From a virus, in the IMG/VR virus record IMGVR_UViG_3300043570_001864, positions 1 to 58,310 of that record: 58,310 nucleotides of DNA, one strand, 5' to 3'. The notes beneath the pieces are model-generated. The model did not search any database. It was not told where the DNA came from and saw only the letters and a program-made list of their open reading frames with translations. Made by a program: the position numbers and the translations under genes. How positions within the stretch are numbered: position 1 is the stretch's first letter; every line of letters starts with the position of its first letter. Positions 4,080-58,300 of the stretch are shown here, piece after piece.

Positions 4080-4109
4080 TTTTTATTCAAAAAAGATATT
4101 GTACTTTTG
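4080..4109 (+). promoter_or_regulatory. Bacteroidota-type promoter (T-run, 17 nt, TACTTTTG)
   Basis: T5 run (4080-4084) followed after 17 bases by TACTTTTG at 4102-4109, matching TAnnTTTG. It drives a short unit that ends at the terminator at 4285-4318. Confidence 0.6.
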
Positions 4110-4147
4110 CGAAACTATTCTGGAAACAGGATATATAATTAAGAAAA

Positions 4148-4255: not shown

Positions 4256-4284
4256 TACAGGAAATCATATTTAGATATTTTGGA

Positions 4285-4318
4285 AAAGGCTTTGATTCAC
4301 ATCAAAGCCTTTTTTTTG
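4285..4318 (+). terminator. intrinsic terminator
   Basis: An 11-bp perfect stem (AAGGCTTTGAT / ATCAAAGCCTT) with a four-base loop, followed by a T8 run. It closes the short unit at 4102-4255. Confidence 0.92.
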
Positions 4319-4341
4319 TTCTTTGACATACTGGAAAAAAT

Positions 4342-4414
4342 GGTACCGTAGCTCAGTCGGTAGAGCACTAGACTGAAAATCTAGGTGTCGCCGGTTCGAT
4401 TCCGGCCGGTACCA
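4342..4414 (+). tRNA. tRNA-Phe (GAA)
   Basis: Acceptor GGTACCG/CGGTACC, anticodon stem CTAGA/TCTAG, loop CTGAAAA giving GAA, T arm GCCGG/CCGGC, discriminator A. Confidence 0.97.
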
Positions 4415-4424
4415 CAATTAAAAT

Positions 4425-4497
4425 GATCTCGTAGCTCAGCTGGTAGAGCACCGCACTTTTAATGCGGGAGTCGAGGGTTCGAGCCCCTCCGGGATCA
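4425..4497 (+). tRNA. tRNA-Lys (UUU)
   Basis: Acceptor GATCTCG/CGGGATC, anticodon stem CCGCA/TGCGG, loop CTTTTAA giving TTT, T loop TTCGAGC, discriminator A. Confidence 0.96.
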
Positions 4498-4503
4498 CTA
4501 CAC

Positions 4504-4576
4504 ACATCAGTAGCTCAATTGGTAGAGTGTTGGTCTCCAAAACCAAAGGTTGTAGGTTCGATTCCTACCTGGTGTG
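4504..4576 (+). tRNA. tRNA-Trp (CCA)
   Basis: Acceptor ACATCAG/CTGGTGT, anticodon stem TTGGT/ACCAA, loop CTCCAAA giving CCA, T arm GTAGG/CCTAC, discriminator G. Confidence 0.95.
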
Positions 4577-4582
4577 CTAAAA

Positions 4583-4655
4583 GGCTCTGTAGTTCAAGGG
4601 ATTAGAATGGATCACTACGGATGATCTGATCCTGGTTCGAATCCAGGTGGAGTCT
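4583..4655 (+). tRNA. tRNA-Arg (ACG)
   Basis: Acceptor GGCTCTG/TGGAGTC with several G-T pairs, anticodon stem GATCA/TGATC, loop CTACGGA giving ACG. A34 would need host TadA deamination. T arm CCTGG/CCAGG intact. Confidence 0.88.
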
Positions 4656-4666
4656 CAAACAAATAG

Positions 4667-4737
4667 GGTCGTGTGGTCGAGTGGTTAGGCACTAGTCTGC
4701 AAAACTAGTTATACTGGTTCAATTCCAGTCACGACCT
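4667..4737 (+). tRNA. tRNA-Cys (GCA)
   Basis: Acceptor GGTCGTG/CACGACC, anticodon stem CTAGT/ACTAG, loop CTGCAAA giving GCA, T arm ACTGG/CCAGT, discriminator U. Confidence 0.95.
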
Positions 4738-4754
4738 CAAAAAAATTTAAAAAT

Positions 4755-4892
4755 ATGATGATAGAAAGTAAAATAGTAGCCAGAGGAAGTTTCCCCTCAA
4801 GCAGAGAAAACTTAAGAAGAGAAACATTAAAATTTAATAGAGCCAAAATATTGATCAGAAGAATTAAAAGACTAATTAACAAAGGAAAGTAA
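4755..4892 (+). CDS. small basic protein, 45 aa, overlapping a tRNA gene
   Basis: ATG at 4755 (a second ATG follows). The peptide is rich in Arg and Lys, with the C-terminal half RAKILIRRIKRLINKGK predicted as a cationic helix. The last nine bases, including the stop, form the 5' acceptor strand and next two bases of the tRNA-Ser gene at 4884. The ORF is therefore either translated from an unprocessed transcript or cut by RNase P at its end. A nucleic-acid- or membrane-binding peptide is possible. No family recognised. Confidence 0.45.
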   Translation: MMIESKIVARGSFPSSRENLRRETLKFNRAKILIRRIKRLINKGK

Positions 4893-4969
4893 TCTCAGAT
4901 GGTGACGGGGCTCGCCTGCTAAGCGAAGCGTACCTTAATTGGTATTTGGTTCGATTCCAATTCTTTCCG
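4884..4969 (+). tRNA. tRNA-Ser (GCU)
   Basis: Class II tRNA with a long variable arm. Anticodon loop CTGCTAA gives GCT. Acceptor GGAAAGT/TCTTTCC has a mismatch at the last pair; one T-stem mismatch; discriminator G. The 5' end overlaps the end of the small ORF at 4755-4892. Confidence 0.8.
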
Positions 4970-4975
4970 CAACAT

Positions 4976-5049
4976 TGACATATAGCTCAGTTGGTTAGAG
5001 CGTTGATCTGATACGTCAAAGGCCGAAGGTTCGAATCCTTCTATGTCAA
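4976..5049 (+). tRNA. tRNA-Ile (GAU)
   Basis: Acceptor TGACATA/TATGTCA, anticodon stem TTGAT/GTCAA, loop CTGATAC giving GAT, T arm GAAGG/CCTTC, discriminator A. Confidence 0.94.
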
Positions 5050-5057
5050 CCACATTT

Positions 5058-5130
5058 AGTCTCTTAGCTCAGTTGGCAGAGCGTTTGGTTTACATCCAAA
5101 ATGTCGGGGGTTCGAATCCCTCAGGGACTA
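5058..5130 (+). tRNA. tRNA-Val (UAC)
   Basis: Acceptor AGTCTCT/AGGGACT, anticodon stem TTTGG/CCAAA, loop TTTACAT giving TAC, T loop TTCGAAT, discriminator A. Confidence 0.94.
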
Positions 5131-5132
5131 CA

Positions 5133-5214
5133 AGATTAGAAGCGGCGAATGGGGTTACTTCTCAGAACTTTTAAATTTGACCAAAAAACACCTCGCTCAA
5201 ATATTCTCTAATCT
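5133..5214 (+). ncRNA. unexplained structured stretch inside the tRNA array
   Basis: The 82 bases are closed by AGATTAGA (5133-5140) and TCTAATCT (5207-5214), an 8-bp perfect inverted repeat in tRNA-like dimensions. There is no T loop (TTCGA) and no clear anticodon arm. It may be a small RNA processed with the tRNAs, or a tRNA decayed beyond recognition. Only the pairing and the position are seen. Confidence 0.35.
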
Positions 5215-5219
5215 AAACT

Positions 5220-5291
5220 GGGGATGTAGCTCAGCGGTAGAGCTCTCGACTGTTAATCGATAGGTCGCTGGTTCGAATCCAGCCTTCCCCG
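5220..5291 (+). tRNA. tRNA-Asn (GUU)
   Basis: Acceptor GGGGATG/CTTCCCC with one T-T mismatch, loop CTGTTAA giving GTT, T arm GCTGG/CCAGC, discriminator G. Confidence 0.93.
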
Positions 5292-5296
5292 CAATT

Positions 5297-5378
5297 CGGA
5301 GTGTTGAGCAATTGGCTGCTCAGCTGACTGTAAATCAGCCGCCTTAAGGCATTGGGGGTTCGAATCCCTCCGCTCCGA
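5297..5378 (+). tRNA. tRNA-Tyr (GUA)
   Basis: Class II tRNA with a long variable arm (GCCTTAAGGC hairpin). Acceptor CGGAGTG/CGCTCCG, anticodon stem GCTGA/TCAGC, loop CTGTAAA giving GTA, discriminator A. Confidence 0.95.
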
Positions 5379-5381
5379 CAC

Positions 5382-5450
5382 AGTGTATCTGTAAGATATA
5401 GAGACGGACAGTCCGACGGTTGAAGTGGATGCGTAATTCCACACGTCTCT
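5382..5450 (+). ncRNA. second unexplained structured stretch in the tRNA array
   Basis: Three nested pairings are visible: TATCT/AGATA near 5386-5398, a long-range AGAGACG (about 5400-5406) with CGTCTCT (5444-5450), and inside it GGAC/GTCC and GTGGA/TCCAC hairpins. It has tRNA-like size but no T loop. It may be a small RNA or a diverged tRNA; it cannot be assigned to the missing Pro tRNA because no TGG anticodon loop is visible. Confidence 0.35.
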
Positions 5451-5454
5451 AAAT

Positions 5455-5527
5455 GCGATAGTAGCTCAGTTGGTAGAGCACCGTCCTTCCAAGTCGGGGG
5501 TCGCAGGTTCGAATCCTGTCTATCGCT
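5455..5527 (+). tRNA. tRNA-Gly (UCC)
   Basis: Acceptor GCGATAG/CTATCGC, loop CTTCCAA giving TCC (anticodon stem CCGTC/GTCGG with one T-T mismatch), T arm GCAGG/CCTGT, discriminator U. Confidence 0.92.
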
Positions 5528-5531
5528 CCAC

Positions 5532-5604
5532 GGGGTAGTAGCTCAATTGGCTGAGCGCTTCCTTTGCAAGGAAGAGGATGTGGGTTCAAGTCCCATCTAC
5601 TCCA
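5532..5604 (+). tRNA. tRNA-Ala (UGC)
   Basis: Acceptor GGGGTAG/CTACTCC, anticodon stem CTTCC/GGAAG, loop TTTGCAA giving TGC, T loop TTCAAGT, discriminator A. Confidence 0.95.
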
Positions 5605-5611
5605 CTTATAT

Positions 5612-5684
5612 GGCGAGTTAGCTCAGTTGGTAGAGCGTTGGAATCATACCCCAAAGGTCGGCAGTTCGAACCTGCCACTCGCTA
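5612..5684 (+). tRNA. elongator-type tRNA with CAU anticodon (Met, or Ile2 if lysidine-modified)
   Basis: Acceptor GGCGAGT/ACTCGCT, loop ATCATAC giving CAT, T arm GGCAG/CTGCC, discriminator A. It lacks the three G-C pairs of the initiator. The innermost anticodon-stem pair is A-C. Met versus Ile2 cannot be settled by eye. Confidence 0.88.
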
Positions 5685-5686
5685 CT

Positions 5687-5763
5687 GTGACGGTAGCTCA
5701 GTTGGTTAGAGCGTCTGATTGTGGTTCAGAAGGTCGGGGGTTCGATTCCCCTCTGTCACCCCA
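5687..5763 (+). tRNA. tRNA-His (GUG)
   Basis: Acceptor GTGACGG/CTGTCAC, anticodon stem TCTGA/TCAGA, loop TTGTGGT giving GTG. The discriminator is C, as expected for His. CCA follows directly at 5761-5763; the other tRNAs here lack it, so it may be chance. Confidence 0.95.
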
Positions 5764-5764
5764 T

Positions 5765-5837
5765 GCCTTTGTAGCTCAGTTGGTAGAGCACTTCACTTGT
5801 AATGAAGATGTCGCAGGTTCAATCCCTGTCAAAGGCT
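5765..5837 (+). tRNA. tRNA-Thr (UGU)
   Basis: Acceptor GCCTTTG/CAAAGGC, anticodon stem CTTCA/TGAAG, loop CTTGTAA giving TGT, T arm GCAGG/CCTGT, discriminator U. Confidence 0.95.
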
Positions 5838-5843
5838 CTAAAT

Positions 5844-5916
5844 TGTCCTGTGGTGTAATTGGCAACACGTCTGGTTTTGGACCAGAAGAGTCCAGGTTCG
5901 AGCCCTGGCGGGACAT
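5844..5916 (+). tRNA. tRNA-Gln (UUG)
   Basis: Acceptor TGTCCTG/CGGGACA, anticodon stem TCTGG/CCAGA, loop TTTTGGA giving TTG, T arm CCAGG/CCTGG. Last tRNA of the array, followed by the HNH gene. Confidence 0.95.
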
Positions 5917-5963
5917 CTAAAAAATAAGATAAATAGATTGACCAGTGTGTAAAAAATGTAGTT

Positions 5964-38958: not shown

Positions 38959-41295
38959 ATGGAAAAAAATATTAATCCAGAGATCAACAGATTAAACATG
39001 GAAACATCTAAGCAAGCAGCTGATTCTTTAAGAGAATGGGCAGGATTAGGTGCTTCTCAAGCTCCTGTTGCTTCTTCATTTCTTAATGGCTCAACTGCTC
39101 AGCACTTAAACGAATCTGCATTTCCAGATATGTCAACTAAAGCTTCTAAAAGAACTTCTTTCAGCTTTGGTGTTTTAAATACTGTTTCAGCATTAAGAAA
39201 CTCAAGCTTAAATGAATTACCAGCAGGTAAAATTCTTTTAGAAAAATACAATTACTTACTAATAGAAAAAGGTATTTCTGAATCCTTTATTATTGAAGAA
39301 TTGTTAAACGATCTTAGCTCTTTTTCTTGGGAAAATTCAGTTAAACCAGTTTTAGAAAACTTAACAAATACTTTTGAAAGTAACAGAAGAGAAGTTGAGG
39401 TTTTAAAAACTTACGAGACTATTAAGAATAATTCAGGAAAAGAACTTTTTTCAGATGCTACAGACCAAATGAAAAATTGGTTATCCTCAGAAAAAAGAAG
39501 CTCAGATACTTTAGTTCACGGATTAAAAAGATTTGGATTTAACCCGATGGTTAGAAATTTAGTTAGTTTCCTTTCAATTTACGAAAATCAAGGCACTAGC
39601 AAATTTAATGTTGGATTTGACAATAATATTTGCGAGATCAGTAATATCTATTCTCCAGTATATGTTAACGAAAATGAAGTGGTATTTTACTCTTCTGGTA
39701 AATTCTTAAAACTTCAAGAATCTGAAGGAACTATTTTTGAATGCGAAATGGAAGAAGTTCCTGCTGAGCTACAAGACAAAGCTTCAATCTTAGCTGATAG
39801 AGACGTTAGAGTTGAGAATAACAGAATATTATTAACACTTGGAAATAATAAAATCGAGATCTCTTTTGCAAATGAATCAAAAACTATCTTCTTTGATGGT
39901 AAAGAAATTAAGGAAGAAGATTTACCGCTTGCAGTAAGTGTTTCAACTAATAACTTATTGGAAAATTCAAACTACAAGATCAATAAAGCAATTTTTATTG
40001 CTAAAGTTGCTGATGAGATTATTGATTTGGATTTTGGTAAAAAAATTAAATCTAAAGTTTATGAAGGTGTAGAAGCTAATATATTTAAAATTGGCGCAAC
40101 TATCTACGTTCAAACAGTTAATCCAGCAATGAAATTAAATAAAATCTACGAAGCTAATGCTACTCAAGCTATTAATATCGTTAAAGACTTTATTAAATAT
40201 GATATCTCTGAATCTTTAACAGAATTCTTAGATGGCGAAGTAGCTTTCTTAAGCGTTATGAAAAATGACAAAACAGAAATCGTTAAGAATATTGATATCT
40301 TAGAAAGCGAATTAAGAAAATTAGATGTTGTTAAGGAACAAAATCCTCTTATTGCTAATTCTGATGAACTAATATCTTTAGAAGAAGGTATCGAAAACGA
40401 AATCGAATCTTTAAAAGACAGATGGAATCAAATCAATGTAGAAATTGAAAGATTTGAAAATAAAGCTAAAGACGTTTCTTCAAATATGAATGAAGATCTT
40501 GGATATCCAATTGATACTGAGGTTAGAGTAAAAAGAAACGGCGTTAAAGGCAGAGTGATTGGAGTAGACGGAAGCTCTAAGACTTACACTATATTATTCC
40601 AAGAGGGTAAAACAGGAGAATATTTCTTCTCTGATGTAGAAGATCTTACTGATGAAGTTAACAACTACGACATTAAAACTCCTGATTTAGATATTGAATA
40701 CACTGACGATTTAGCTAATGAATCTAATCAAAATTTAGCATCTGCACCAGGAAATAAAGGAGGTAGTTATAAAGATAAATCGGTTATGAATTTATCTAAA
40801 AAACACATGGCTGCTGCTCCTAATAAAAAAACAGGATCATCTCCTAAATTTATAGATAATGATTCAAATGCTAATTTTGGAAAAACACCTAAGTCTGGTA
40901 AAAGAACATCTGAAACAGGAAACAGTGTAAAATCTGGAGCTAGTAATTTAGCAAAACTTCCTAAAGGATCTGCTGGTAAAGGACAAAACTTTATTGATGG
41001 ATTAGAAAATTTAGATTTAGCTAAAGCACCAAGTGGATCTGTTAAAGGATCAGCTAAATTTATTCAAGATCTTAAGAATATGAATCTTGCAATTAAAGAG
41101 AGTCAAAAAAATTCGCACATTGAAAAAGCTCCTGCAGGATCAAAAGAAGTACCTAAAAAGTTTATTGAAAAAGAAGAGAGAGCTAATTTAGCAGATGCTC
41201 ACGGAAATTCCAATAAGAATGGTAAAAGATTTGCAGAAGCAGATTCTGTAGCAGCATTTGCTACTACACCAGGGAGAGCATCAAAAAAAAAGTAA
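38959..41295 (+). CDS. large virion-associated protein with C-terminal short-motif repeats; probable frameshift donor
   Basis: 778 residues. Residues 1-500 are helical and soluble, with a coiled coil near 435-510 (KNIDILESELRKLD, EEGIENEIESLKDRWNQINV). Residues 515-555 (DTEVRVKRNGVKGRVIGVDG, YTILFQEGKTGEYFFSD) look like an SH3/Tudor or KOW-like barrel. The last 190 residues hold about eight degenerate repeats of about 20 residues with core xLAKAPxGSxKGxxKFIxD, ending GRASKKK. Codon use favours A/T-ending optimal codons as in abundant proteins. The 3' end TCA AAA AAA AAG TAA contains A AAA AAG, and a -1 shift opens an 83-codon extension. Role unknown; perhaps scaffold or internal head protein. 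Confidence 0.7.
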   Translation: MEKNINPEINRLNMETSKQAADSLREWAGLGASQAPVASSFLNGSTAQHLNESAFPDMSTKASKRTSFSFGVLNTVSALRNSSLNELPAGKILLEKYNYLLIEKGISESFIIEELLNDLSSFSWENSVKPVLENLTNTFESNRREVEVLKTYETIKNNSGKELFSDATDQMKNWLSSEKRSSDTLVHGLKRFGFNPMVRNLVSFLSIYENQGTSKFNVGFDNNICEISNIYSPVYVNENEVVFYSSGKFLKLQESEGTIFECEMEEVPAELQDKASILADRDVRVENNRILLTLGNNKIEISFANESKTIFFDGKEIKEEDLPLAVSVSTNNLLENSNYKINKAIFIAKVADEIIDLDFGKKIKSKVYEGVEANIFKIGATIYVQTVNPAMKLNKIYEANATQAINIVKDFIKYDISESLTEFLDGEVAFLSVMKNDKTEIVKNIDILESELRKLDVVKEQNPLIANSDELISLEEGIENEIESLKDRWNQINVEIERFENKAKDVSSNMNEDLGYPIDTEVRVKRNGVKGRVIGVDGSSKTYTILFQEGKTGEYFFSDVEDLTDEVNNYDIKTPDLDIEYTDDLANESNQNLASAPGNKGGSYKDKSVMNLSKKHMAAAPNKKTGSSPKFIDNDSNANFGKTPKSGKRTSETGNSVKSGASNLAKLPKGSAGKGQNFIDGLENLDLAKAPSGSVKGSAKFIQDLKNMNLAIKESQKNSHIEKAPAGSKEVPKKFIEKEERANLADAHGNSNKNGKRFAEADSVAAFATTPGRASKKK
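40732..41292 (+). repeat. degenerate ~60-bp coding repeat (xLAKAPxGS..KFI motif)
   Basis: About eight copies of a 17-25-residue unit: a small hydrophobic (NLA), A/L-x-P, a Gly/Ser/Lys-rich turn, and KFI(D/E). Examples: NLAKLPKGSAGKGQNFIDGL, DLAKAPSGSVKGSAKFIQDL, IEKAPAGSKEVPKKFIEKEE, NLADAHGNSNKNGKRFAEAD. The copies are diverged at DNA level, so the repeat is old and probably selected. Confidence 0.7.
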
Positions 41296-41361
41296 TTACG
41301 AAGAAAATAATTGAGTCTGTTGGCCAAAAATCCGAAGAGGGTATTGGCAACAGACTCAATT
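41286..41361 (+). promoter_or_regulatory. predicted -1 ribosomal frameshift signal: A AAA AAG plus downstream stem-loop
   Basis: The heptamer A AAA AAG (41286-41292), the same as in E. coli dnaX, is in the correct phase for the 38959 gene and is followed at once by TAA. A 14-bp perfect stem pairs 41309-41322 with 41348-41361, extended after one bulged G by four more pairs, with a 16-nt loop. The spacer of 16 bases is longer than usual. The run of nine A residues could also cause transcriptional slippage. Confidence 0.65.
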
Positions 41362-41543
41362 TTGTTTTAGATGATTTGAAAGATTGTCTAGCAAAGATAA
41401 AGGAATTGGAAACTTCTAGCGAAGAACACGGTAAGATAGGTATAGAAACAATTAGAAATTCGAGGATAAATTTGGAAAAATTAAGATTAAATTTAGAAGA
41501 TCAAATAGAGAAACTCCAAAATAACAGCCCCGAAGCACAATGA
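41292..41543 (+). CDS. frameshift-accessed C-terminal extension (coiled-coil, ~83 codons)
   Basis: The -1 frame after the slippery site reads VITKKIIESVGQKSEEGIGN, then RLNFVLDDLKDCLAKIKELE, and a final charged helix ending QIEKLQNNSPEAQ. It has clear protein-like composition, heptad hydrophobics and ends in TGA overlapping the next ATG as ATGA (41540-41543). There is no ATG, GTG or early TTG to start it independently (first TTG is 28 codons in). It continues uninterrupted upstream into the A run of the 38959 gene. I therefore infer a fusion of 778 plus about 83 residues made by frameshift or slippage. Confidence 0.65.
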   Translation, partial: VITKKIIESVGQKSEEGIGNRLNFVLDDLKDCLAKIKELETSSEEHGKIGIETIRNSRINLEKLRLNLEDQIEKLQNNSPEAQ

Positions 41544-41896
41544 TATATGTAAAAAACAAAGAGCTTAAAAGAGCTTTACAAGAAAGCAAAGAAGTAGGAA
41601 AACTCACATCCGAAACTGTGCAAATGTTTACTTTAATAGTAAACGGAATGTCTAAGACCCATTCATACAGAGATCACGAAGATCGCGAAGATTGTATCTC
41701 ATTCGGATTAGAGGATTTAATAAAATACTGGAACAGATACGATCCAGCAAAATCTGATAATCCTTTTGCTTTCATTTCGCAAATAGCACATAATGGAATG
41801 AAGAAAGGATGGAAAAAAATATATCCACCTAAAGCTCCTAAAACTATACCATTTTCAAGAATCGTAAGAGAAGAAAATTCCAATTATAATATATAA
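41540..41896 (+). CDS. late-transcription sigma factor (T4 gp55-like)
   Basis: 118 residues starting MIYVKNKELKRALQESKEVG. It follows the T4 gp55 pattern: YVNNKELLxAI at the N-terminus, IVNGMSKTHSYRDH (T4 AEGLSKRFNF), DCISFGLEDLIKYWNRYDPA (ADGIEASIKGLHNFD), and NPFAFISQIAHNGMKKGWKK ([20 protein letters not shown]). This is sigma region 2, which reads the late -10 box. The C-terminal clamp-binding part is short. The ATG overlaps the stop of the frameshift ORF (ATGA). TATAAATA-like boxes before virion genes are the expected targets. Confidence 0.8.
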   Translation: MIYVKNKELKRALQESKEVGKLTSETVQMFTLIVNGMSKTHSYRDHEDREDCISFGLEDLIKYWNRYDPAKSDNPFAFISQIAHNGMKKGWKKIYPPKAPKTIPFSRIVREENSNYNI

Positions 41897-41902: not shown

Positions 41903-42388
41903 ATGGACATCAAAAAACTAAAGCCGAATGGTAAATGGAAGTCTGGTAAATACTACCCTACTAATCCAGAAAAGTATATTGGTGATATTCATAATATAAT
42001 TTATAGAAGCTCTTGGGAACAAAGATTTTGTCAGTATTGTGATATTAATCCCAATATAACTAAATGGAGCTCAGAACCTACAGGTATTCCTTATTGGAGT
42101 CCAATTGATAAAAAAGAACATAAATACTTTGTTGATTATTATATCCAGGTATTAAAAAATAACTCGGTAGAAAATTGGTTAATTGAAATAAAGCCAGAAG
42201 ATCAGTATGCTTTACATATGAGGCCAAAAGAGCCTACAGGTAATCTTACGGAAAAGAAAATAAGAAGCTATAATGAAAGACTCAAAACTTGGATCACAAA
42301 CAGATGTAAGTTTGAAGCAGCAACAAGATTTGCAGAATCTAGAGGTTATAAGTTTGGAGCTATAAACGAAACCTTTATAATGCGATGA
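41903..42388 (+). CDS. head completion protein (T4 gp4-like nuclease fold)
   Basis: 161 residues. Pattern of T4 gp4/gp50 family: GKWKSGKYYPTNPEKYIGD, IIYRSSWEQRFCQYCDINPN, WSSEPTGIPYWSPIDKKEHK, YFVDYYIQV, and IEIKPEDQ. The D...ExK arrangement (DYY, IEIK) is that of a TnsA-like PD-(D/E)XK fold. It acts in finishing the DNA-filled head before tail joining. It lies 6 bases after the late sigma gene and overlaps the next gene by 4 bases. Confidence 0.85.
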   Translation: MDIKKLKPNGKWKSGKYYPTNPEKYIGDIHNIIYRSSWEQRFCQYCDINPNITKWSSEPTGIPYWSPIDKKEHKYFVDYYIQVLKNNSVENWLIEIKPEDQYALHMRPKEPTGNLTEKKIRSYNERLKTWITNRCKFEAATRFAESRGYKFGAINETFIMR

Positions 42389-42978
42389 AACCTTTTAAAA
42401 CACAATTTGAAGATTATAAATTATCAGTATCTGGTCTTTCGTCATTAGCCGAGGATTCTTTTATGCACTGGTTTAAAACATTTGTAAATAGTAAGAGCCA
42501 ATTTAACCCTTCGAGTTTTTTGTCAGGTAAAGTTTATTCATTAGAATATAACGACCAATTAGAAAAATCTAAAAAATATATTAATAAAAGACCCATAGTA
42601 TTCTTTACTGGCTTTAAAAGCTACGAAGATAAGACAATATTTTATGGTATAGATTTAATATTGCTGTCTCCTCAATTTAGAATTCCTTTTTTTACAAGAA
42701 TACAAAGTGTTTATCAAGAAATCATAGAAAAGAACCAAGAAAAAATCGGCAGGGGGGAAATTAAATCACAGGTTCTGTTAAAAACAGATTACGAAACACT
42801 TGACACTATTCTTAAAGGAATAAACTATAAACATGCTTATAGAGCATGGGATTTAAAAAAAGTTCGTGATGTTGTGGAAATTCCTTACGAAGATTGGACT
42901 AGAATAGTATATCTGGATACTAGGTCAATTGAAGGGACCCAGTTAAATGAGATATATAAGAAAAATTTACAGATCTAA
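42385..42978 (+). CDS. conserved phage protein of unknown function next to portal
   Basis: 197 residues starting MKPFKTQFEDYKLSVSGLSS. The central part (SGKVYSLEYNDQLEK, RPIVFFTGFKS, YGIDLILLSPQFRIPFFTRI) has the shape of a conserved structural or assembly protein seen near head-completion genes of T4-like phages: Gly-x-hYxF, Pro-hhhhh, then G-hNhhhhPxxxR. I cannot name it with certainty. ATGA overlap with the gp4-like gene and TAATG overlap with portal 1 indicate one operon. Confidence 0.55.
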   Translation: MKPFKTQFEDYKLSVSGLSSLAEDSFMHWFKTFVNSKSQFNPSSFLSGKVYSLEYNDQLEKSKKYINKRPIVFFTGFKSYEDKTIFYGIDLILLSPQFRIPFFTRIQSVYQEIIEKNQEKIGRGEIKSQVLLKTDYETLDTILKGINYKHAYRAWDLKKVRDVVEIPYEDWTRIVYLDTRSIEGTQLNEIYKKNLQI

Positions 42979-44621
42979 TGGCTGGATTTACAGATGATAA
43001 AAAAACATTCTTTAGTGCTATTATAGATAGCGTTAAAAAAGTTGGCAGTTTTGGTATGTCTTATGAGGATCTAGTGATTAAAAATTCACAAGCAGTAGGT
43101 GTAAGCGAAGCACAATTCCTACAAAAAGGAGGTATTAAAGATGAGGCTTTCTTATTCGGTTTAAGAAGAGCAGATACAACAACTAAGCAGTATATAGCTT
43201 ATTTTGATAAAGATTATAAAAATAAAAAGCATTACTTACAAGGTTTTTCACAGAATCCAGAGATTGAATTTATTTTAGATACTATTTGTGATGAAGCTAT
43301 AGTGTATGACGAAAGAAACTTTTGGGCTTACTTCTCATTTATGCAGCACGATGATGTTGATGAAGAGACATACGATAAAGTACAAAAAAGATACAAAGAG
43401 ATCTATAATCTATTTGGATTTAACCAAGACATATTAGCTTGGCACTTATTCAGAAAATTCTTATCCGATGGTATATTATCTTTTGAAATAGTATTTGATA
43501 AGAAAGGTAAAAATATAGTAGGTTTTAAGGAATTAGATCCTGCTTCTCTTGTACCAACAGTAGAAGCACAGCCTGACGGATCATTTATAGACATATGGAT
43601 TCAATATCCAGATAACCCATCTTTGACTAGAAAGCTTTATGATTCGCAGATAATTTATATAAGTTATGCTAAAGGTGGAGGTACAGCAGGTAGAGTAAGT
43701 TATACTGAAAGATTAATTAGATCATTCAACTTACTTAGAATTATGGAACACACCAGAATCATCTGGAACGTAATGAATTCTTCTTATCGTATGGCAATGA
43801 CAGTTCCAATTGGAACTAAATCTCCGCAAAAAGCTAAACAGACTCTTGGAGAGTTAATGTCAATCTATAAAGAAGATATTAGATTAAATACTGATAGTGG
43901 AGAATTATCAGTAGACGGAAAACCCAAAATACAATTCTTTAAGAATTATTTAATGCCTTCATCTCCTAACGGAACACCAGATATTCAGCCTTTAGCTGGA
44001 GCAGGTGATGCTACCGCATTCTCCGATACTACGGTATTAAAATATTTTGCAAATAAATTAAGGATGGATTCTAAAATACCTGCTACTAGATTCGGTAGGG
44101 AAGAATCAGGATCAGAAGGTACTATTACATTTACTGCAGAAGGATTAGACCAAGAAGAAATTAGATTCGGTAAATTTATAAACAGATTAAGGTCAATATA
44201 CCAAGATATTTTAATGAAACCATTATGGGTTCAATTCTGTTTAGATTTTCCTAATCTAAAAACCGATTACATTCTAAAATCTGAATTCGGACTAGACTAC
44301 GTTAAGGAAAATATGTTTAGAGAAGCCAAGGATATGGAGGTAATGGTAGCAAGAAAGGATCAGGTTATAAAAATTTCAGGTCTACTAAATTCCGAAGGTA
44401 AAAAATACTTCAGTATGGATTTCTTAGTTGATAGATTTCTAGGAATGAATAACCAAGATATTTCCGATAACAAAAAAGCTAAAGAAGAAGCTGCTGATAA
44501 GAAAAAAGAAGCTGCAGGAGCAACAGGCGGAACACCAACTGAAGACGAAGCACCAGCTGAAGGAGCAACAGGTGAAGCACCAGCTGAAGAAGAAGAAGGA
44601 GGAGAAGAATTTACACTATAA
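42978..44621 (+). CDS. portal protein, copy 1 (T4 gp20-like)
   Basis: 547 residues. Portal signatures: EIEFILDTICDEAIVYDERN, FLSDGILSFEIVFDKKGKNI, FKELDPASLVP, SYTERLIRSFNLLRIMEHTR, IIWNVMNSSYRMAMTVPIGT, and FINRLRSIYQDILMKPLW. It forms the ring at the head vertex through which TerL packages DNA. The C-terminal 50 residues are a low-complexity Gly-Ala-Thr-Glu tail (GATGG, EGATGEAPAEEEEGG). The next gene is a full-length paralogue, a rare arrangement. Confidence 0.92.
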   Translation: MAGFTDDKKTFFSAIIDSVKKVGSFGMSYEDLVIKNSQAVGVSEAQFLQKGGIKDEAFLFGLRRADTTTKQYIAYFDKDYKNKKHYLQGFSQNPEIEFILDTICDEAIVYDERNFWAYFSFMQHDDVDEETYDKVQKRYKEIYNLFGFNQDILAWHLFRKFLSDGILSFEIVFDKKGKNIVGFKELDPASLVPTVEAQPDGSFIDIWIQYPDNPSLTRKLYDSQIIYISYAKGGGTAGRVSYTERLIRSFNLLRIMEHTRIIWNVMNSSYRMAMTVPIGTKSPQKAKQTLGELMSIYKEDIRLNTDSGELSVDGKPKIQFFKNYLMPSSPNGTPDIQPLAGAGDATAFSDTTVLKYFANKLRMDSKIPATRFGREESGSEGTITFTAEGLDQEEIRFGKFINRLRSIYQDILMKPLWVQFCLDFPNLKTDYILKSEFGLDYVKENMFREAKDMEVMVARKDQVIKISGLLNSEGKKYFSMDFLVDRFLGMNNQDISDNKKAKEEAADKKKEAAGATGGTPTEDEAPAEGATGEAPAEEEEGGEEFTL

Positions 44622-44627: not shown

Positions 44628-46274
44628 ATGGCAGGATTTCTAGATAATATTGGAAAGTTTAATCCTAATATCTCAAGGATATTAAAATCAATTAGTGGTT
44701 TAGGATCTTTTGGTATGGAATATAAAGATATGGTAATAGAGGATTCTATGGCTATAGGTATTTCAGAAGCTAATATGAGAGAAAGATTTGGATTCTCTGG
44801 AGATGACGAAGATTTTATTTATAGTATAGCTGCACAGGATACCACAAATAAAAAATACATAGCATACTTTGATAAAGATTATCCATTCAAAAGAGATTTT
44901 CTTAGAACATTTGCACTTAATGCTGAAATAGAATACATCTTAGACACTATTTGTGATGAAGGTATAGTTTACGATGAGAAGAACTTCTTCTGTCATCCTG
45001 CAACCATTAATATGGAATTAAAGGATGACGTATTAAAATCCTTAAGAGGCAATTTCAGAAAACTTTATGTCCTTCATAATTTTTGCAACGGTATAACGGG
45101 ATGGCAATATTTTAGACAATTAATTGTTGAGGGATTTTTGGCATTTGAAATCATTTATTCTAGTGACGGAAAAGAAATTGTGGGATTTAAAGAATTAGAT
45201 GCTATAAGTCTTACACCAGCTATAGAAAAAAAACCTGATGGCACAAGAGAAACTATCTGGTGGCAGTACTATGGTGAAACTACTAGACAAAGAAGATTAT
45301 TAGATGCACAGGTGATTTATATCTCTTACTCTAAAGCTAATTCAGTTTCAAGAATATCTTATACGGAAAGATTAATTAGATCTTTCAATTTGCTTAAGAT
45401 TATGGAGCATTCAAGGATTATCTGGAACGTAATGAATGCCCAGTACAGAATTAAAATGACAGTTCCTATCGGAAGTAAAGCTCCACAAAAAGCTAAAGAG
45501 ACTTTAGGAGAACTTATGTCAGTTTACAAAGAGGATATTAAACTCGATACCACATCAGGTGAATTATCTATAAATGGAAGACCCGATTTACAATTTTATA
45601 AAAATTATCTTTTTCCACAAAGTGGTGGCGAATCAGTAAAAGTGGAAACAATTAACGGACAAGGACCAAATCTGAACGTAATGGATTCTGTGGTTTATTT
45701 CTATAATAAATTAAGACAGGATTCAAAAATTCCATACAATAGATTCTCTTCTAGATTCGGTGTTAGTAGTAGCAATACATTTAAATCTGGTGCAGATGGT
45801 GCAGAAAGGGATGAAGTTAGATTTTCTAAATTTATAACAAGACTAAGATCTATCTTTCAGGAAATTATGGTTAAGCCATTATGGATCCAAATGTGTTTAG
45901 AATTTCCACATCTTAAAGACGATGCAGAATTTAGAAGTCAAATAGGTGTTAAGTTTGAAAGCGATAACATGTTTGGTGAATCTAGAGAGATTGAACAACT
46001 AATTAAAAAAGTAGATTTTGTAACTGCTTTAGGAGAGGTAAAAGAAACAATAAATGAAGAAGAAGTTCAATATTTCAATCAGGATTACTTAATAGAAAGA
46101 TGGTTAGATTTATCTAATGATGATATTAAGATGAACAAATTTTATGTTAAAAAAGCAGAGGAGGAAGTAAAAGCAGGAGCAACTGGAGCAGCAGAAGGAG
46201 CAACTGGAGCAGCAGAAGGAGCAACGGGAGCAGAAGGTGAAACTGGAGCAGAAGAAGAAGAAGCATCTATTTAA
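44628..46274 (+). CDS. portal protein, copy 2 (T4 gp20-like paralogue)
   Basis: 548 residues, collinear with copy 1 and sharing most signatures (EIEYILDTICDEGIVYDEKN, SYTERLIRSFNLLKIMEHSR, VPIGSKAPQKAKETLGELMS, FITRLRSIFQEIMVKPLW), but diverged in the first 60 residues, in the 340-390 region and near the C-terminus. The tail again consists of GATGAAEGATG repeats. Both genes are intact, so the portal may be a mixed ring, or one copy may have another role. Confidence 0.9.
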   Translation: MAGFLDNIGKFNPNISRILKSISGLGSFGMEYKDMVIEDSMAIGISEANMRERFGFSGDDEDFIYSIAAQDTTNKKYIAYFDKDYPFKRDFLRTFALNAEIEYILDTICDEGIVYDEKNFFCHPATINMELKDDVLKSLRGNFRKLYVLHNFCNGITGWQYFRQLIVEGFLAFEIIYSSDGKEIVGFKELDAISLTPAIEKKPDGTRETIWWQYYGETTRQRRLLDAQVIYISYSKANSVSRISYTERLIRSFNLLKIMEHSRIIWNVMNAQYRIKMTVPIGSKAPQKAKETLGELMSVYKEDIKLDTTSGELSINGRPDLQFYKNYLFPQSGGESVKVETINGQGPNLNVMDSVVYFYNKLRQDSKIPYNRFSSRFGVSSSNTFKSGADGAERDEVRFSKFITRLRSIFQEIMVKPLWIQMCLEFPHLKDDAEFRSQIGVKFESDNMFGESREIEQLIKKVDFVTALGEVKETINEEEVQYFNQDYLIERWLDLSNDDIKMNKFYVKKAEEEVKAGATGAAEGATGAAEGATGAEGETGAEEEEASI

Positions 46275-50857: not shown

Positions 50858-53800
50858 ATGAAGGAACTTAATCAAATAACGATAAAACAACTCCTGGCTT
50901 CTAATACCATAGGAGTCAATAATTCTATCACTAATGCCAATTTTGCACAATTACAAGAGGGATTACTTCTTATAAATTCAGCATTTGGTATTTCAATACA
51001 GAATAAGACATTAAATTTCCCTACTGGTAAAATTAATACTGGTGCAATAAAAGCAGACACCATAAGATTGCCTATCAATGGTAATTCTTCTATTCAATTA
51101 AATGGAAGCAATGGAGAAATATTAGTAAACGGATTAATTACAACTGCTAATGCCTTTATTGGAGGAAACTTAATAGTAGGTGACAGTAACAATGGAGGAA
51201 GATTAAAATTAATCCTAGACCGAACTTATATAGACGAAACAATTAAACCTGGAGAACCCGGACAGGTAAGGTTTATTGGAGATGACTATGAGGTTTATTT
51301 AAATTATGGAGAGGTATTATCGTCATTCTCATTTACTGTGGGTTCTGGTGCAAATGGACAGGATATAGCAGTTTTATATAATGGAGCAACAGCAGGACAA
51401 GTTCAATGGAATAATGATAATGTTTTAACATCAGAAAATTTAGTAAATGCTATACTTACTAACGCCACTGGTCCTTGTTTAGCAGAATCAAATCTAAATA
51501 CAGTTACAATCCTAGCATTACCTGGATTAGGTGCAACAGCAAACGGAGACACTATAACAATATCAGGAAGTGTACCTGTCAGTGTGACATCTGGAACTAT
51601 GTCAGGCGGTGTTAATGGAACAGGAGCTTGGGTTTCTATAATAGGATCACAAGGACCTACAGGACCTACAGGATCAGGAGCTGGACCTACAGGAGCTACA
51701 GGAACAGGAGCTACAGGAACAACAGGTGCTACCGGTGCTACCGGGGCAACTGGTGCAGGAATCACAGGAGCTACTGGAGCTACTGGAACAGGAGCTACAG
51801 GAACAACCGGAACAACCGGACCAACAGGTGATACAGGACCTACTGGTCCTAATGGAGCAAAAGGATCCGCAGGAGCTCCTGGTGTTACTGGTGCTACCGG
51901 ACCTTCTGGACCTTCTGGACCTACTGGATCTACGGGAACAGCAGGAAGTAATGGTGCCACTGGATCTACAGGTTCTACCGGACCTACTGGAGCTACTGGA
52001 GCTACTGGAACTAATTGGTACACAGGATCTGGTGCTCCTTCTATAGGAACAGGAAGCGAAGGAGACTTATACTTAGACGGTGTTACTGGAGATGTATACG
52101 AAAAAATAGGGGGAATTTGGCAATTACAATCTAATATTAAAGGTGTTACTGGCGATACTGGAGCAACAGGAGCAACAGGGGAAACAGGAGCTACTGGAGC
52201 TACTGGAGATACTGGAGCTACTGGAGCTACGGGAACTGGTGAAACGGGAGCTACCGGAGCAACAGGAGCAGTAGGAACGCCTACACCTATGGGATATGTA
52301 GATTTATCTAAACTTAGCACATCACAACAAATATCACAAGGTGGATTTAAGCCTATAAATTTTGACACCACAAATCTTATTGATAGTTCATATTTTACAG
52401 TAGGGACTTTTACAATCTCTTCGACAACTGGTGTATATGTTGAGGTTTTAAAAGCCGGAACATATTTTATATCATACAAAGTTGGATTGGAACATGCGTC
52501 TTCGGGATCTTATAGTTTTTTATCTAGTAGCTTATGGAAGGATACAACAACACCAGTAGAGATAACAAATTTTAAAGGATTTACAACATTAGAAGATGTT
52601 GCATCTGGTGTAATACCATCTGATATAATTACTATTACTGGTATTTTGAATGCAGCTGTTGGTGATCAGTATTGGGTAAAGGTAGTATACCAAGGAGGAG
52701 GATCAGGTATTGTAGATATCACCGATGGTGACACAGGATTTAGTATGTTTTCTTTAGAAGGAAATCAAGGAACAGATGGAACTAGCGGCACATCAGGAAT
52801 AAGTGGTTCATCAGGAACATCAGGAATAGGAGGAACTAGTGGAACTAGTGGAATAAGTGGAACAGACGGAAGTTCTGGTTCTAGCGGTACATCAGGATCA
52901 GGAACTAGTGGAACATCAGGAACATCCACTCCAGGTATAACAAGCGGATCTAGTGGTACATCAGGAATAGACGGCACATCAGGATCTAGTGGAACATCAG
53001 GAATAGGTGGTACATCAGGATCTAGTGGTACATCAGGAATAGACGGAACATCAGGATCTAGTGGAACATCAGGAATAGACGGAACATCAGGATCTAGTGG
53101 AACAAGCGGTATAACAGGAATAGATGGTAGTTCAGGATCTAGTGGAACATCAGGAATAGGTGGCACATCAGGATCTAGTGGCACATCAGGAATAGATGGA
53201 ACATCGGGTACATCCGCTCCTGGTATAACAAGTGGAACTAGTGGATCATCAGGATCTAGCGGTAGTTCAGGATCTAGTGGAACTTCTGGAATAGATGGAT
53301 CAAGTGGAACTTCTGGAATAGATGGTTCAAGTGGAACAAGTGGATCTAGTGGAACAAGTGGATCTAGTGGAACATCAGGATCTAGTGGAACATCAGGATC
53401 TAGTGGTAGCTCAGGATCTAGTGGTAGCTCAGGATCTAGTGGAACTTCTGGAATAGATGGTTCAAGTGGAACCTCAGGAATAAATGGTTCAAGTGGAACT
53501 AGTGGTTTATCAGGAGTAGATGGAGTATCAGGATCTAGCGGAACATCAGGATCTAGTGGAAGCTCGGGATCCAGTGGAACTTCAGGATCTAGTGGTAGCT
53601 CGGGAACTTCGGGAATAGATGGTTCTTCAGGAACTTCAGGGATAGATGGTTCAAGTGGAACATCAGGAATAGATGGATCTAGTGGAACATCAGGATCTAG
53701 TGGAACTTCAGGATCTAGTGGAACTTCAGGATCTAGTGGAACTTCAGGATATAGTGGTAGCTCAGGAACTTCGGGAATAGATGGTTCTTCAGGAACTTCA

Positions 53801-55246
53801 GGGATAGATGGTTCAAGTGGAACATCAGGAATAGATGGATCTAGTGGAACATCAGGATCTAGTGGAACATCAGGATCTAGTGGAAGCTCAGGATCTAGTG
53901 GAACTTCAGGATATAGTGGTAGCTCGGGAACTTCGGGAATAGATGGTTCTTCAGGAACTTCAGGTTCAAGCGGAACATCAGGTTCAAGTGGAACATCGGG
54001 AATAGATGGATCTAGTGGAACATCAGGATCTAGTGGAAGCTCTGGATCTAGTGGAACTTCAGGATATAGTGGTAGCTCGGGAACTTCGGGAATAGATGGT
54101 TCTTCAGGAACTTCAGGGATAGATGGTTCAAGCGGAACATCAGGTTCAAGTGGAACATCGGGAATAGATGGATCTAGTGGAACATCAGGATCTAGTGGAA
54201 GCTCTGGATCTAGTGGAACTTCAGGATATAGTGGTAGCTCGGGAACTTCGGGAATAGATGGTTCTTCAGGAACATCAGGTTCAAGCGGAACATCAGGAAT
54301 AGATGGATCTAGTGGAACATCAGGATCTAGTGGAAGCTCAGGATCTAGTGGAACAAGTGGATCAGGATCTAGTGGAACAAGTGGATCTAGTGGAACTTCA
54401 GGATATAGTGGAAGCTCAGGAACTTCAGGAATAGATGGTTCAAGTGGCACATCAGGATCTAGTGGAACATCAGGATATAGTGGATCTTCAGGAACATCAG
54501 GATCTAGTGGAACATCAGGATCTAGTGGAACATCAGGATCTTCGGGTAGCTCAGGATCTTCAGGATCTTCAGGATCTAGTGGAACATCAGGATCTAGTGG
54601 CTCAAGTGGTACATCAGGAGTAGGAACAGCTATTCTTTATAATTCAGTTTCTAGATACAGAACATATCTTAATTCGGATATAGAATGCTGGATAGCCTCA
54701 AGTTCAAGCGTTAACATTGGACTTGATTGGTCTAGATCTGGAACAACTCTAACAATCACACATAACTCGCACGGAAGATCTGATGGTAATATGATCATTG
54801 TGAGAAACGCAAATGCTGATAATTTCAATGGTACTATTAGTGTAGTAAATGCAAACACCTTCACAGTAAATACTGTGGACAGTGGGGCACTTTCAGGTAA
54901 AGAAGCAGCTTATTCTCTAGGATTTACAGTGGGAACACCTACAGCAGCAGCACTGACTATAACAGCACCCGCAAGTGCTGATTGCCAATTATTGTCTGTA
55001 TTATATGCAACAGGAGCTAGATCTGGGCAAACATTAGCAGTAACTACTCCTATTGGTGCAACAAATGGTTGTGGAGCGAATAGTACTGCTCAAAATCAAT
55101 TTTATCCTGTATTTTTAGTTAGGACAATATCAACAGGTGCAACGCAGGCGGCTACATTAACTTTAAATACATCATCTAACTTTCATGTATTTAACTTTGC
55201 AGCAATGAATCCATCATTAAGTAATCTCGTAAGATTAGATTTCTAA
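50858..55246 (+). CDS. giant collagen-like fibre protein
   Basis: 1462 residues. Residues 1-260: N-terminal virion-binding part with beta-helix-like repeats ([20 protein letters not shown]). 265-386 and 428-475: Gly-x-y tracts of GAT/GPT type (collagen-like). 476-632: a beta-sandwich, C1q/TNF-like ([11 protein letters not shown] to [13 protein letters not shown]). 636-1254: over 600 residues of Gly-x-y of GTS/GSS/GID type. 1255-1462: C-terminal globular domain ([20 protein letters not shown] to [13 protein letters not shown]), the likely receptor or trimerisation domain. Phage fibres of this type form triple helices without hydroxyproline. Its own late box lies upstream. Confidence 0.88.
52764..54617 (+). 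repeat. collagen-like coding repeat (GTS/GSS/GID)
   Basis: Near-identical 9- to 45-base units, such as GGATCTAGTGGAACATCAGG and GGAATAGATGG, repeated throughout. Several 100-180-base blocks recur almost unchanged (compare 53750-53870, 53920-54010 and 54060-54180), pointing to recent expansion by recombination. No CRISPR features. Confidence 0.9.
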
Positions 55247-55259
55247 TTAAAAGAAGAAG

Positions 55260-55268
55260 AATATATAC
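55260..55268 (+). promoter_or_regulatory. late-promoter-like box AATATATAC
   Basis: Box 32 bases before the GTG at 55301. Confidence 0.4.
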
Positions 55269-55300
55269 AATAAGACAAATAAATATAAAGAAATTAATCT

Positions 55301-58300
55301 GTGGCTAGACCTAATTTAATAACCGGACAAATTACCATACCGGGGTTTTCTCAATACATTGCAGTTAACCCCACAGCAGACGTAGCTTCAGGTAATGCTA
55401 ATATTAGCGGTATAACTGATACGAATCTGCTCTATCCTGGATTAGAAGTATCTAATAGTAATTTTCCACCTGGTACAACTATATTAAGTGTAAATTATGG
55501 AGCGAACACTGCAATATTAAGCAATAATGCAACAGGTACAGCTACCGGAACTACTTTAACTATAGTATTCTCTGATGGGCTTTACTACTGTCCTGGATCT
55601 ACATATTTGGATGTAAACGGAGCTTATGACAATACAGATATAACAGAGGGATTTCAGATAGTTAATCTAGCTACTGATGCTAACACTAGTTATTATTTAT
55701 CAGGCGTATTTAATCTTTGGAGAATCACATATATTTCTGATGTTGTTGGAGATGGTACTACACTTTCTTTCTATGTACAATTTGATGAGGAAGCCCCATA
55801 TTCAGCTTTTAATAGAATACCTACAGATGCTATACAAAATGCTATAAGTCAACAAACATCTAACAGAGCTTATGGATGGAACGTGTCTTCACAAGTTTAT
55901 CCTAGTCTTCCTGCAGGATCTGATATAGCTCAAACCAATTTAGATGCACAGAACATCTCAGATTATGTTCCAGTAATTGTAGGTCCTACAGGACAACAAT
56001 TTAATGGAGCTTGGTATGTTGGATTTACTGGTGCTGGTGTTACAGTAGCTGGTGATGGTGCAGAATTTGAAAAAGTAACAGTTACAATACCAGGTGGATC
56101 TGGTGGATCTGCTATAGCAATATACGGACCAACCGGACAAGTGGCTACAGGAGCTACCGGTATTAATTTTACGGGATCCGGTATTAGTTCAGTTACATCT
56201 TCAAATAACTTTGTTACTGTATCAGTATTAGGAGGAGCAGGAACATCAGGTTCAAGTGGTACCTCAGGTTCTTCTGGGACTAGTGGAACTTCAGGAATAG
56301 ATGGTTCTTCAGGAACTTCAGGCTTAAGTGGAACAGATGGTTCTAGTGGAACTTCAGGCTTAAGTGGAACAGATGGTTCTAGTGGAACTTCAGGCTTAAG
56401 TGGAACAGATGGTTCTAGCGGAACTTCAGGAATAGATGGTTCTAGTGGAACTTCAGGAATAGATGGTTCTAGTGGAACTTCAGGAACTTCAGGAATAGAC
56501 GGTTCTAGTGGAACTTCAGGAATAGACGGTTCTAGTGGAACTTCAGGCTTAAGCGGAATAGATGGTTCTTCAGGAACTTCGGGAATAAGTGGTTCTTCAG
56601 GAACTTCGGGAATAAGTGGTTCAAGCGGATCTAGTGGAACTTCAGGAATAGATGGTTCTTCAGGAACTTCGGGATTAGATGGTTCTTCAGGAACTTCAGG
56701 ATTAGATGGTTCTAGTGGAACTTCAGGATTAGATGGTTCTAGTGGAACATCCGGAACATCCGGAACATCCGGAATAGATGGCTCAAGTGGAACTTCGGGA
56801 ATAGATGGTTCTAGTGGAACTTCAGGAATAGATGGTTCTTCAGGAACTTCTGGAATAGATGGAACATCAGGAACTTCTGGAATAGATGGAACTTCAGGAA
56901 CTTCAGGATTAGATGGATCTAGTGGAACATCGGGAATAGATGGTTCTAGTGGAACTTCAGGATTAGATGGTTCTTCAGGAACTTCGGGAATAGATGGAAC
57001 TTCAGGAACAGATGGTTCAAGTGGAACTAGTGGAACTAGTGGAATAGATGGAACTTCAGGAACAGATGGTTCAAGTGGAACTTCAGGAATAGATGGAACT
57101 TCAGGAACAGATGGTTCAAGTGGAACTTCAGGAACAGATGGTTCAAGTGGAACTAGTGGAACTAGTGGAATAGATGGAACTTCAGGAACAGATGGTTCTT
57201 CAGGAACATCAGGATCTAGTGGAACTTCAGGAACAGATGGTTCTAGTGGAACTAGTGGAATAGATGGAACTTCAGGAACAGATGGTTCTTCAGGAACTTC
57301 AGGAATAGATGGAACTTCAGGAACAGATGGTTCTAGTGGAACTTCAGGAATAGATGGTTCTAGTGGAACTTCAGGAATAGATGGTTCTTCAGGAACTTCT
57401 GGAATAGATGGAACTTCAGGAACTTCAGGAATAGATGGTTCAAGTGGAACTTCTGGTTCTTCAGGAACATCAGGATCTTCAGGAACTAGTGGAATAGATG
57501 GAACTTCAGGAACAGATGGTTCTTCAGGAACTTCAGGAATAGATGGAACTTCAGGAACAGATGGTTCTAGTGGAACTAGTGGAATAGATGGAACTTCAGG
57601 AACAGATGGTTCTTCAGGAACTTCAGGAATAGATGGAACTTCAGGAACAGATGGTTCTAGTGGAACTAGTGGAATAGATGGAACCTCAGGAACAGATGGT
57701 TCAAGTGGAACTTCAGGAATAGATGGTTCAAGTGGAACTTCTGGTTCTTCAGGAACATCAGGATCTTCAGGAACTAGTGGAATAGATGGAACTTCAGGAA
57801 CAGATGGTTCAAGTGGAACTAGTGGAATAGATGGAACTTCAGGAACAGATGGTTCAAGTGGAACTTCAGGAATAGATGGAACTTCAGGAACAGATGGTTC
57901 AAGTGGAACTTCAGGAATAGATGGAACTTCAGGAACAGATGGTTCTTCAGGAACATCAGGATCTAGTGGAACTTCAGGATCTTCGGGAACATCAGGATCT
58001 AGTGGAACTTCAGGAATAGATGGAACTTCAGGAACAGATGGTTCAAGTGGAACTTCAGGAATAGATGGAACTTCAGGAACAGATGGTTCAAGTGGAACTT
58101 CAGGAATAGATGGAACTTCAGGAACAGATGGTTCTAGTGGAACTTCAGGAATAGATGGAACTTCAGGAACAGATGGTTCTTCAGGAACTTCAGGAATAGA
58201 TGGAACTTCAGGAACAGATGGTTCTTCAGGAACTTCAGGAATAGATGGAACTTCAGGAACAGATGGTTCTAGTGGAACTTCGGGTTTAAGTGGAATAGAT

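Follow-up and report, generated by a model that had tools for sequence, protein, structure and literature searches.

A conserved A9 run between a T4-like phage gene and its -1 frame extension is a candidate slippage site

Introduction

A virus record of 58,310 bases, IMGVR_UViG_3300043570_001864 (the window), raises the question of how a reading frame is reached that opens where the preceding gene ends and that contains no ATG or GTG codon. The gene, P0001, is an open reading frame (ORF) on the + strand at 38959-41295; its 0-frame product is a large protein of 778 amino acids. The 3' end of P0001 reads TCA AAA AAA AAG TAA: a run of nine adenines (A9, 41283-41291) is followed by G41292 and the 0-frame stop TAA (41293-41295), and A AAA AAG (41286-41292) is in phase for slipping by -1. 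Open from 41226, the -1 frame comprises 83 codons and a TGA from the slip onward (41292-41543, + strand), its first TTG is codon 29, and its stop (41541-41543) overlaps the ATG (41540) of a gp55-like late sigma factor gene as ATGA. A perfect 14-bp stem (41309-41322 with 41348-41361) begins after a spacer of 16 nucleotides (nt).

An initial annotation, all of whose checked coordinates proved correct, had read these features as a ribosomal -1 frameshift that is stimulated by the stem and adds a coiled coil to a fraction of a virion protein, with transcriptional slippage on the A run as an alternative. Comparison with related loci supports a shift on the A run, ranks the alternative above the ribosomal shift and suggests that the stem is a separate element.

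Results and Discussion

Junctions compared

Relatives of P0001 were found at 44 loci, some of them partial, and relatives of the extension at 59 loci, corresponding to 38 distinct extension sequences. Three of these (L074, L088, L103) end before the junction and were left out, leaving 35 close junctions (clade 1), the window's own included. A search with the sigma factor protein gave at least 70 loci among the matches listed. A distant group (clade 2), enlarged by a search with its own extension sequence, contains 54 loci with 23 distinct junctions; with two intermediate junctions (L170, L171) the set amounts to 60 distinct junctions. At the four clade-2 loci examined the upstream ORFs are P0001 homologues (30-32% identity over 668-740 columns), and P0001 homologues further out show 26-48% identity. 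Related sequences share ancestry, and the counts given below are not probabilities.

The -1 frame extension is a conserved coding sequence

All 60 junctions have a 0-frame stop directly behind the A run and a -1 frame that continues without a stop for 56-84 codons (one contig being cut short). The open length is 80-84 codons in the 35 clade-1 junctions, where the other two frames carry 6-14 stops each. L170 and L171 show A9G, a stop and then a homologous extension of 79 and 80 codons, respectively. In clade 2 the frame is open for 56-61 codons in 22 of 23 junctions, and in the last it runs to the contig end.

Substitution patterns point to selection on the encoded protein. In clade 1, substitutions are most frequent at third codon positions of the -1 frame (0.30, versus 0.21 and 0.13), and the ratio of nonsynonymous to synonymous substitution rates (dN/dS) has a median of 0.29 (588 usable of 595 pairs). 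For clade 2, dN was lower than dS in all 14 estimable pairs out of 15. As judged from these alignments, the extension is a conserved coding sequence, without a shared start codon ahead of its conserved part. ATG occurs in one and GTG in two of the 35 clade-1 extensions; TTG occurs in all 35, at a codon that varies (most often 29, 39 or 61), and the conserved residues start at codons 8-9. The homologue alignment, in which a clear start codon for the small ORF would have refuted the initial annotation, revealed none that is shared ahead of the conserved part, and A9 is found in 59 of the 60 junctions; a shift on the A run, instead of an own start codon or a sequencing error, would account for how the extension is reached.

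Two simpler explanations were weighed. If the -1 frame were a separate small gene, translation would have to begin at a non-standard start codon; the window has ATT and ATA codons near the start of the frame, and codon 33 is ATG in 20 of 23 clade-2 junctions. This ATG, however, comes after the conserved first nine residues of the clade-2 extension, the clade-1 candidates are rare or vary in position as described, and a separate gene would give the A9 run no reason to track the extension. We regard a separate gene as very improbable. Homopolymers are error-prone in sequencing, and an assembly or sequencing error in the A run could hide a true sequence in which the frames are fused. The constancy of A9 speaks against such an error, as does the 0-frame stop, which would be needless in a fused frame and yet is kept next to the run in all 60 junctions, in three forms (TAA, TAG and TGA); this explanation is less probable still, to the point of being negligible.

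The locus is a well-supported case of recoding in T4-like phages from environmental metagenomes; it concerns a gene of unknown function that routine ORF prediction would terminate at the 0-frame stop. No relation between the clade-1 and clade-2 extensions was detectable by hhalign (probability 0.5).

The A9 run is conserved beyond the needs of its codons

The exception to A9 among the 60 junctions is a single A10, and all nine A positions are invariant in the 58 junctions of clades 1 and 2. Within clade 1, both the bases before the run and the spacer after the stop are variable. The site reads A AAA AAG in 33 of the 35 clade-1 junctions, A AAA AAC in one and A AAA AAA in one; in clade 2, A9 is followed by C and then by TAA or TGA in 23 of 23 (A AAA AAC). 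A slippery heptamer in phase, as in ribosomal shifts of the dnaX/IS3 type, is therefore present, and so is a homopolymer of about eight or more A's at the frame junction, as expected for poly-A slippage.

The run is also conserved more strictly than its codons demand, the second feature expected for poly-A slippage. Immediately ahead of the Lys codons, all 35 clade-1 junctions have a codon with a final A (ACA, TCA, GCA or AGA), whereas among 144 fourfold degenerate columns of 18 P0001 genes only 3 have an invariant third base, in no case A. Invariant Lys columns of the same 18 genes are always AAA in 3 of 25. Since the wobble A before the Lys codons is held, three A's beyond those needed for a ribosomal heptamer are also kept. 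In 10 of 43 junctions the stretch over which both frames lack a stop is just 13 nt long, and the shift must then fall on the run.

The recurrence of run, stop and open -1 frame in 35 distinct close junctions is more than chance. A chance A run was considered by way of the three other A9 runs on the + strand of the window (37340, 37735 and 12519). The two located in the upstream gene (37340 and 37735) are not kept in 10 usable relatives; for this comparison 14 loci were given and 12 matched, and L010 and L011 (a 15-nt fragment) were dropped.

Run and extension are absent together

Both the run and the extension are missing in L120, in L172/L173 and in L174/L175, where the -1 frame closes after 2 codons (L120), 24 codons (L172) and 3 codons (L174 and L175). 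The L120 region can still be aligned with the extensions, although it is broken. A tree built from the sigma, gp4, gp2 and portal proteins places L120 with the extension-bearing L087/L095 (support 0.99) and L174/L175 with the extension-bearing L170/L171 (0.99), and L172/L173 as sister to clade 1 (1.0); elsewhere in the tree some branches have low support, down to 0.03. Because the extensions of L170/L171 and of clade 1 are homologous, the pattern reads as three separate joint losses of run and extension, barring transfer between lineages. L188, the most distant homologue, has neither run nor extension. Across the sequences compared, extension and A9 are kept or lost together. Three joint absences and two unrelated-looking extensions behind the same A9 make the locus a good system for studying the function and origin of such protein tails.

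The hairpin downstream resembles an intrinsic terminator

The stem belongs to a hairpin at 41309-41361 (+ strand), within the extension. Scanning of the window in 55-nt stretches at every third base identified it as the strongest local hairpin of the + strand (-28.5 kcal/mol, the next being -22.3), with a z-score of -6.8 against shuffled sequences. In clade 1 it shows 35 compensatory cells, compared with 9.7 in shuffled alignments, and a covariation score of 0.200 compared with 0.107; none of 500 shuffles reached either value. Pairs with double changes (3 versus 2.4) and the number of pair types (8 versus 8.9) were not above shuffles, and RNAalifold found one pair with double changes. A Leu codon in the hairpin is CTC in 27 of 27 representatives, while CTC makes up 0.4% of the Leu codons in P0001 genes. 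Counted from the first base of the stop, the invariant core GAGTCT begins 20 or 23 nt downstream in clade 1.

The hairpin is followed by a U-tract (41360-41369, + strand) that is conserved at synonymous positions. In the 27 representatives it contains on average 6.96 T out of 8, compared with 5.36 in a simulation of codon choice (0 of 2000 runs as high); for the window alone P is 0.11-0.15. A stable hairpin, compensatory change and a U-tract, which are the features of an intrinsic terminator, are thus found together. The hairpin with its U-tract is best read as a predicted intrinsic terminator, or an attenuator, placed between P0001 and the operon of gp55-like sigma factor, gp4, gp2 and portal genes, with the extension written across it. 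It resembles intrinsic terminators and translation-coupled attenuation in its hairpin, its U-tract and its position about 20 nt after a stop codon, and differs from them in that the putative terminator lies inside a conserved -1 coding frame.

The distribution of the hairpin among relatives does not follow that of the run. L120, L172 and L174 lack the extension and yet have a hairpin at this place, followed by 6-7 T out of 8; for L175 the program picked another hairpin, and the expected one is visible in the sequence only. Clade-2 hairpins were computed for 22 of the 23 junctions (L244 is truncated), in a search that ranks candidates and has no shuffled control. In six clade-2 members the hairpin starts 91-97 nt after the stop; 14 of the 22 carry one at least as stable as -18.6 kcal/mol that begins 86-97 nt beyond the stop, and the other eight keep run and extension without the usual hairpin, their best hairpins being weaker (-13.0 to -18.1 kcal/mol). 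As hairpin and run-plus-extension occur without each other, the hairpin would be a separate element.

These results bear directly on the role first assigned to the stem, that of stimulating a ribosomal -1 shift at A AAA AAG. An in-phase heptamer and a strong, covarying clade-1 hairpin are what such a shift would use, and some members can fold an A-U lower stem that brings the hairpin closer; spacers as long as 11-14 nt occur in other systems, and a lower stem may be missed, according to the part of PMC5009743 consulted (the other papers cited here by PMC number were likewise consulted in part). The spacer is nevertheless at least 16 nt, and no downstream structure was found at the distance typical of stimulators in dnaX/IS3-type shifts. 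The occurrence of the hairpin without the shift site and of the shift site without the hairpin led us to reject a stimulatory stem as the leading explanation, and the U-tract fits a terminator. A stem-stimulated shift is accordingly quite improbable. The case serves as a warning that a stem-loop after a slippery run need not be its stimulator, the two being told apart here only by the distant relatives; it also provides an example of a conserved coding frame written across a terminator-like hairpin.

Slippage by RNA polymerase or by the ribosome

We propose that P0001 is made in two forms. Most copies would end at the stop after the A9 run, and a minority would slip on A9, continue in the -1 frame and gain an 83-residue, probably helical C-terminal module. 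The main slip would consist in the addition of one A by RNA polymerase, the resulting A10 messenger RNA (mRNA) opening the -1 frame. RNA polymerase is probably the chief agent of the slip, a view that we take with some reserve and because all nine A's are conserved, the clades differ in the base that follows (G in clade 1, as a rule, and C in clade 2), and the junctions have no stimulator in common. An upstream Shine-Dalgarno (SD)-like element is one such stimulator. AGGGAG precedes the run in the window, reportedly as in dnaX. SD-like tetramers, however, are confined to 7 of 35 clade-1 and 8 of 23 clade-2 junctions, and a shared upstream stimulator was therefore rejected.

Known cases agree with the proposed role of RNA polymerase. 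In the portions consulted of the respective reports, E. coli RNA polymerase had no detectable slippage activity below eight A's (PMC6260861), nine A's is a length at which slippage of RNA polymerase was demonstrated for Thermus dnaX (PMC3711429), and for the eleven A's of Citrobacter tssM the missing nearby stimulators were taken to argue for transcriptional slippage (PMC4256274). With the programmed transcriptional realignment of Thermus dnaX, Citrobacter tssM and Shigella spa13 the locus shares an A run near a stop and two C termini (PMC3711429, PMC4256274, PMC5009743), and with spa13 also the overlap between the end of the extension and the start of the next gene, as that gene is described in part of PMC5009743. 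In clade 1 this overlap is found in 35 of 35 junctions, as ATGA in 32 and as TAATG in 3. The locus differs from these systems in being a T4-like phage gene before a late sigma factor gene, with a terminator-like hairpin inside the extension, and in being a candidate for slippage only.

Several points weigh against slippage by RNA polymerase, or against the wider proposal. Sequence alone cannot tell polymerase from ribosome. G follows the run in 33 of 35 clade-1 junctions, as a ribosomal A AAA AAG would favour, although AAG accounts for 23% of Lys codons. The E. coli enzyme slips less on A than on T runs, in the data consulted of PMC6260861. The last part of the clade-2 extension could also start at the ATG of codon 33. 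Of the eight clade-2 members that lack the usual hairpin, five have as their best-scoring candidate a weaker one (-13.5 to -18.1 kcal/mol) that begins 15-17 nt beyond the stop. Finally, an efficient terminator would cut the extension's own mRNA.

It is accordingly possible, though we lean away from it, that the ribosome alone shifts by -1 on the run (on A AAA AAG in clade 1, on A AAA AAC in clade 2, and on the overlapping A AAA AAA), perhaps helped by the adjoining stop codon, the hairpin having no part in the shift and acting as a terminator. The in-phase heptamer and the stop next to it in 60 of 60 junctions are compatible with this, as are the prevalence of G after the run in spite of AAG being the rarer Lys codon and the presence of a tRNA-Lys(UUU) gene in the window. 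A frameshift cluster with a proven A_AAA_AAC site has no established stimulator, as far as the section of PMC4066793 consulted goes. A shift by the ribosome alone would leave unexplained the three A's beyond the heptamer that are invariant in 58 of 58 junctions, and it has against it the A AAA AAC of all 23 clade-2 junctions and the lack of an SD-like element or near structure common to the junctions. The locus is like ribosomal -1 shifts of the dnaX/IS3 type in its in-phase A AAA AAG with a stop close behind; the missing conserved upstream SD, the absence of a structure at the usual 5-9 nt, the clade-2 A AAA AAC and the three extra conserved A's set it apart from them.

The slip could also work as a switch, coupling expression of the late sigma operon to the long form of P0001. 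Ribosomes halting at the 0-frame stop would leave the hairpin, which begins some 17-25 nt downstream, free to terminate the transcript; those translating a slipped message would cross the hairpin, transcription would go on, and they would finish on the sigma start codon, where they could restart. A translating ribosome can prevent intrinsic terminator hairpins, according to the consulted part of PMC5021804. Lineages without the slip, however, keep the terminator-like hairpin, and in clade 2 the overlap is missing, as is the hairpin in some members; we think such a switch unlikely.

In a cursory survey of the open literature no report of this case was found. Closest to it came a methyltransferase gene of a Campylobacter phage, in which a frameshift in a poly-A tract is perhaps rescued by transcriptional slippage (PMC2853527, in the part consulted). 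The proposed mechanism is of a known kind; what is new, as far as our searches show, is where it occurs, together with the two extensions and the terminator-like hairpin embedded there.

P0001 and the product of the extension

P0001 gave no convincing match in Pfam, PHROGs or solved structures; its best matches were far below the cut-off (Pfam, expectation value (E) 0.005 and 16.9 of the 35 bits needed; PHROGs, E 0.016). The description of P0001 as a virion protein thus found no support in family matches, and such a function could only be guessed from the neighbouring genes. An AlphaFold model of P0001 was unusable (13 sequences; predicted local distance difference test score (pLDDT) 45.7). 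Residues ~590-778 (window ~40726-41292), of low confidence in that model, show short motifs that recur between AP-containing stretches (KFI, NFI or RFA; residues 630, 677, 700, 734 and 757); AP motifs are also present in the clade-2 extension.

The window's extension was modelled as two helices, residues 14-46 and 51-77, at moderate confidence only (pLDDT 71.6), which does not confirm the coiled coil anticipated earlier. Its matches to PDB sequences were weak (best E 0.011, ClpB), and the viral structure library gave no match at E <= 0.001. The gain of a C-terminal module by a share of a phage protein recalls lambda gpG-gpGT and the coat protein extensions of T3, A2 and A118 (PMC5009743); the portion of this review that was consulted states that the G-T shift is not seen in T4. 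The present locus differs from gpG-gpGT in its gene neighbourhood, no major tail protein and tape measure genes lying beside the pair, and in that P0001 is a candidate structural protein only.

Neighbouring genes and other observations

Downstream of P0001, all on the + strand, are the genes of the gp55-like late sigma factor (41540-41896; phrog_234, E 1.9e-16; PF04542), a gp4-like head closure protein (41903-42388; phrog_218, E 5.3e-44; PF08722), a gp2-like DNA end protector (42385-42978; phrog_429, E 3.6e-12) and a gp20-like portal protein (42978-44621; PF07230, E 1.4e-58); the two upstream genes have no family match. The window's T4-like genes thus include those of portal, sigma, head-closure and DNA-end-protector proteins. 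A second portal gene stands in tandem at 44628-46274 (PF07230, E 5.7e-61), the two sharing 248 of 518 aligned positions (48%), and L120 also has two such ORFs. T4 has one portal gene.

No near DNA match to the window was found among the phage records searched, and no relative among the genome contigs searched for a host. Distant protein matches occur in 16 huge-phage records, 15 of which are Prevotella Lak phages.

GAAACT (window 41409-41415) occurs upstream of the sigma gene, also in L120, L172, L174 and L175; in clade 2 it comes after the extension stop, between extension and sigma gene, and is followed by AACCTCGAGG in most of the members shown. GAAACT may serve in the regulation of the sigma gene; the window shows no enrichment of GAAACTT. 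TTGGAAACTT, considered as a promoter motif ahead of the sigma gene, was rejected, not being enriched in the window either. Near the extension end, shortly ahead of the sigma start, the LQNN codons (window ~41513-41526) include CTC, a rare Leu codon shared by 23 of 27 extensions, and the broken L120 copy retains a similar stretch; these codons perhaps form a signal of the sigma gene.

Repetitive DNA at ~51700-52300 and 53500-57400 recurs among the stable hairpins of the window; it apparently consists of Gly/Thr/Ser-rich coding repeats, perhaps of fibre genes. Nineteen tRNA genes lie at 2691-5917, that of tRNA-Lys(UUU) at 4425-4498.

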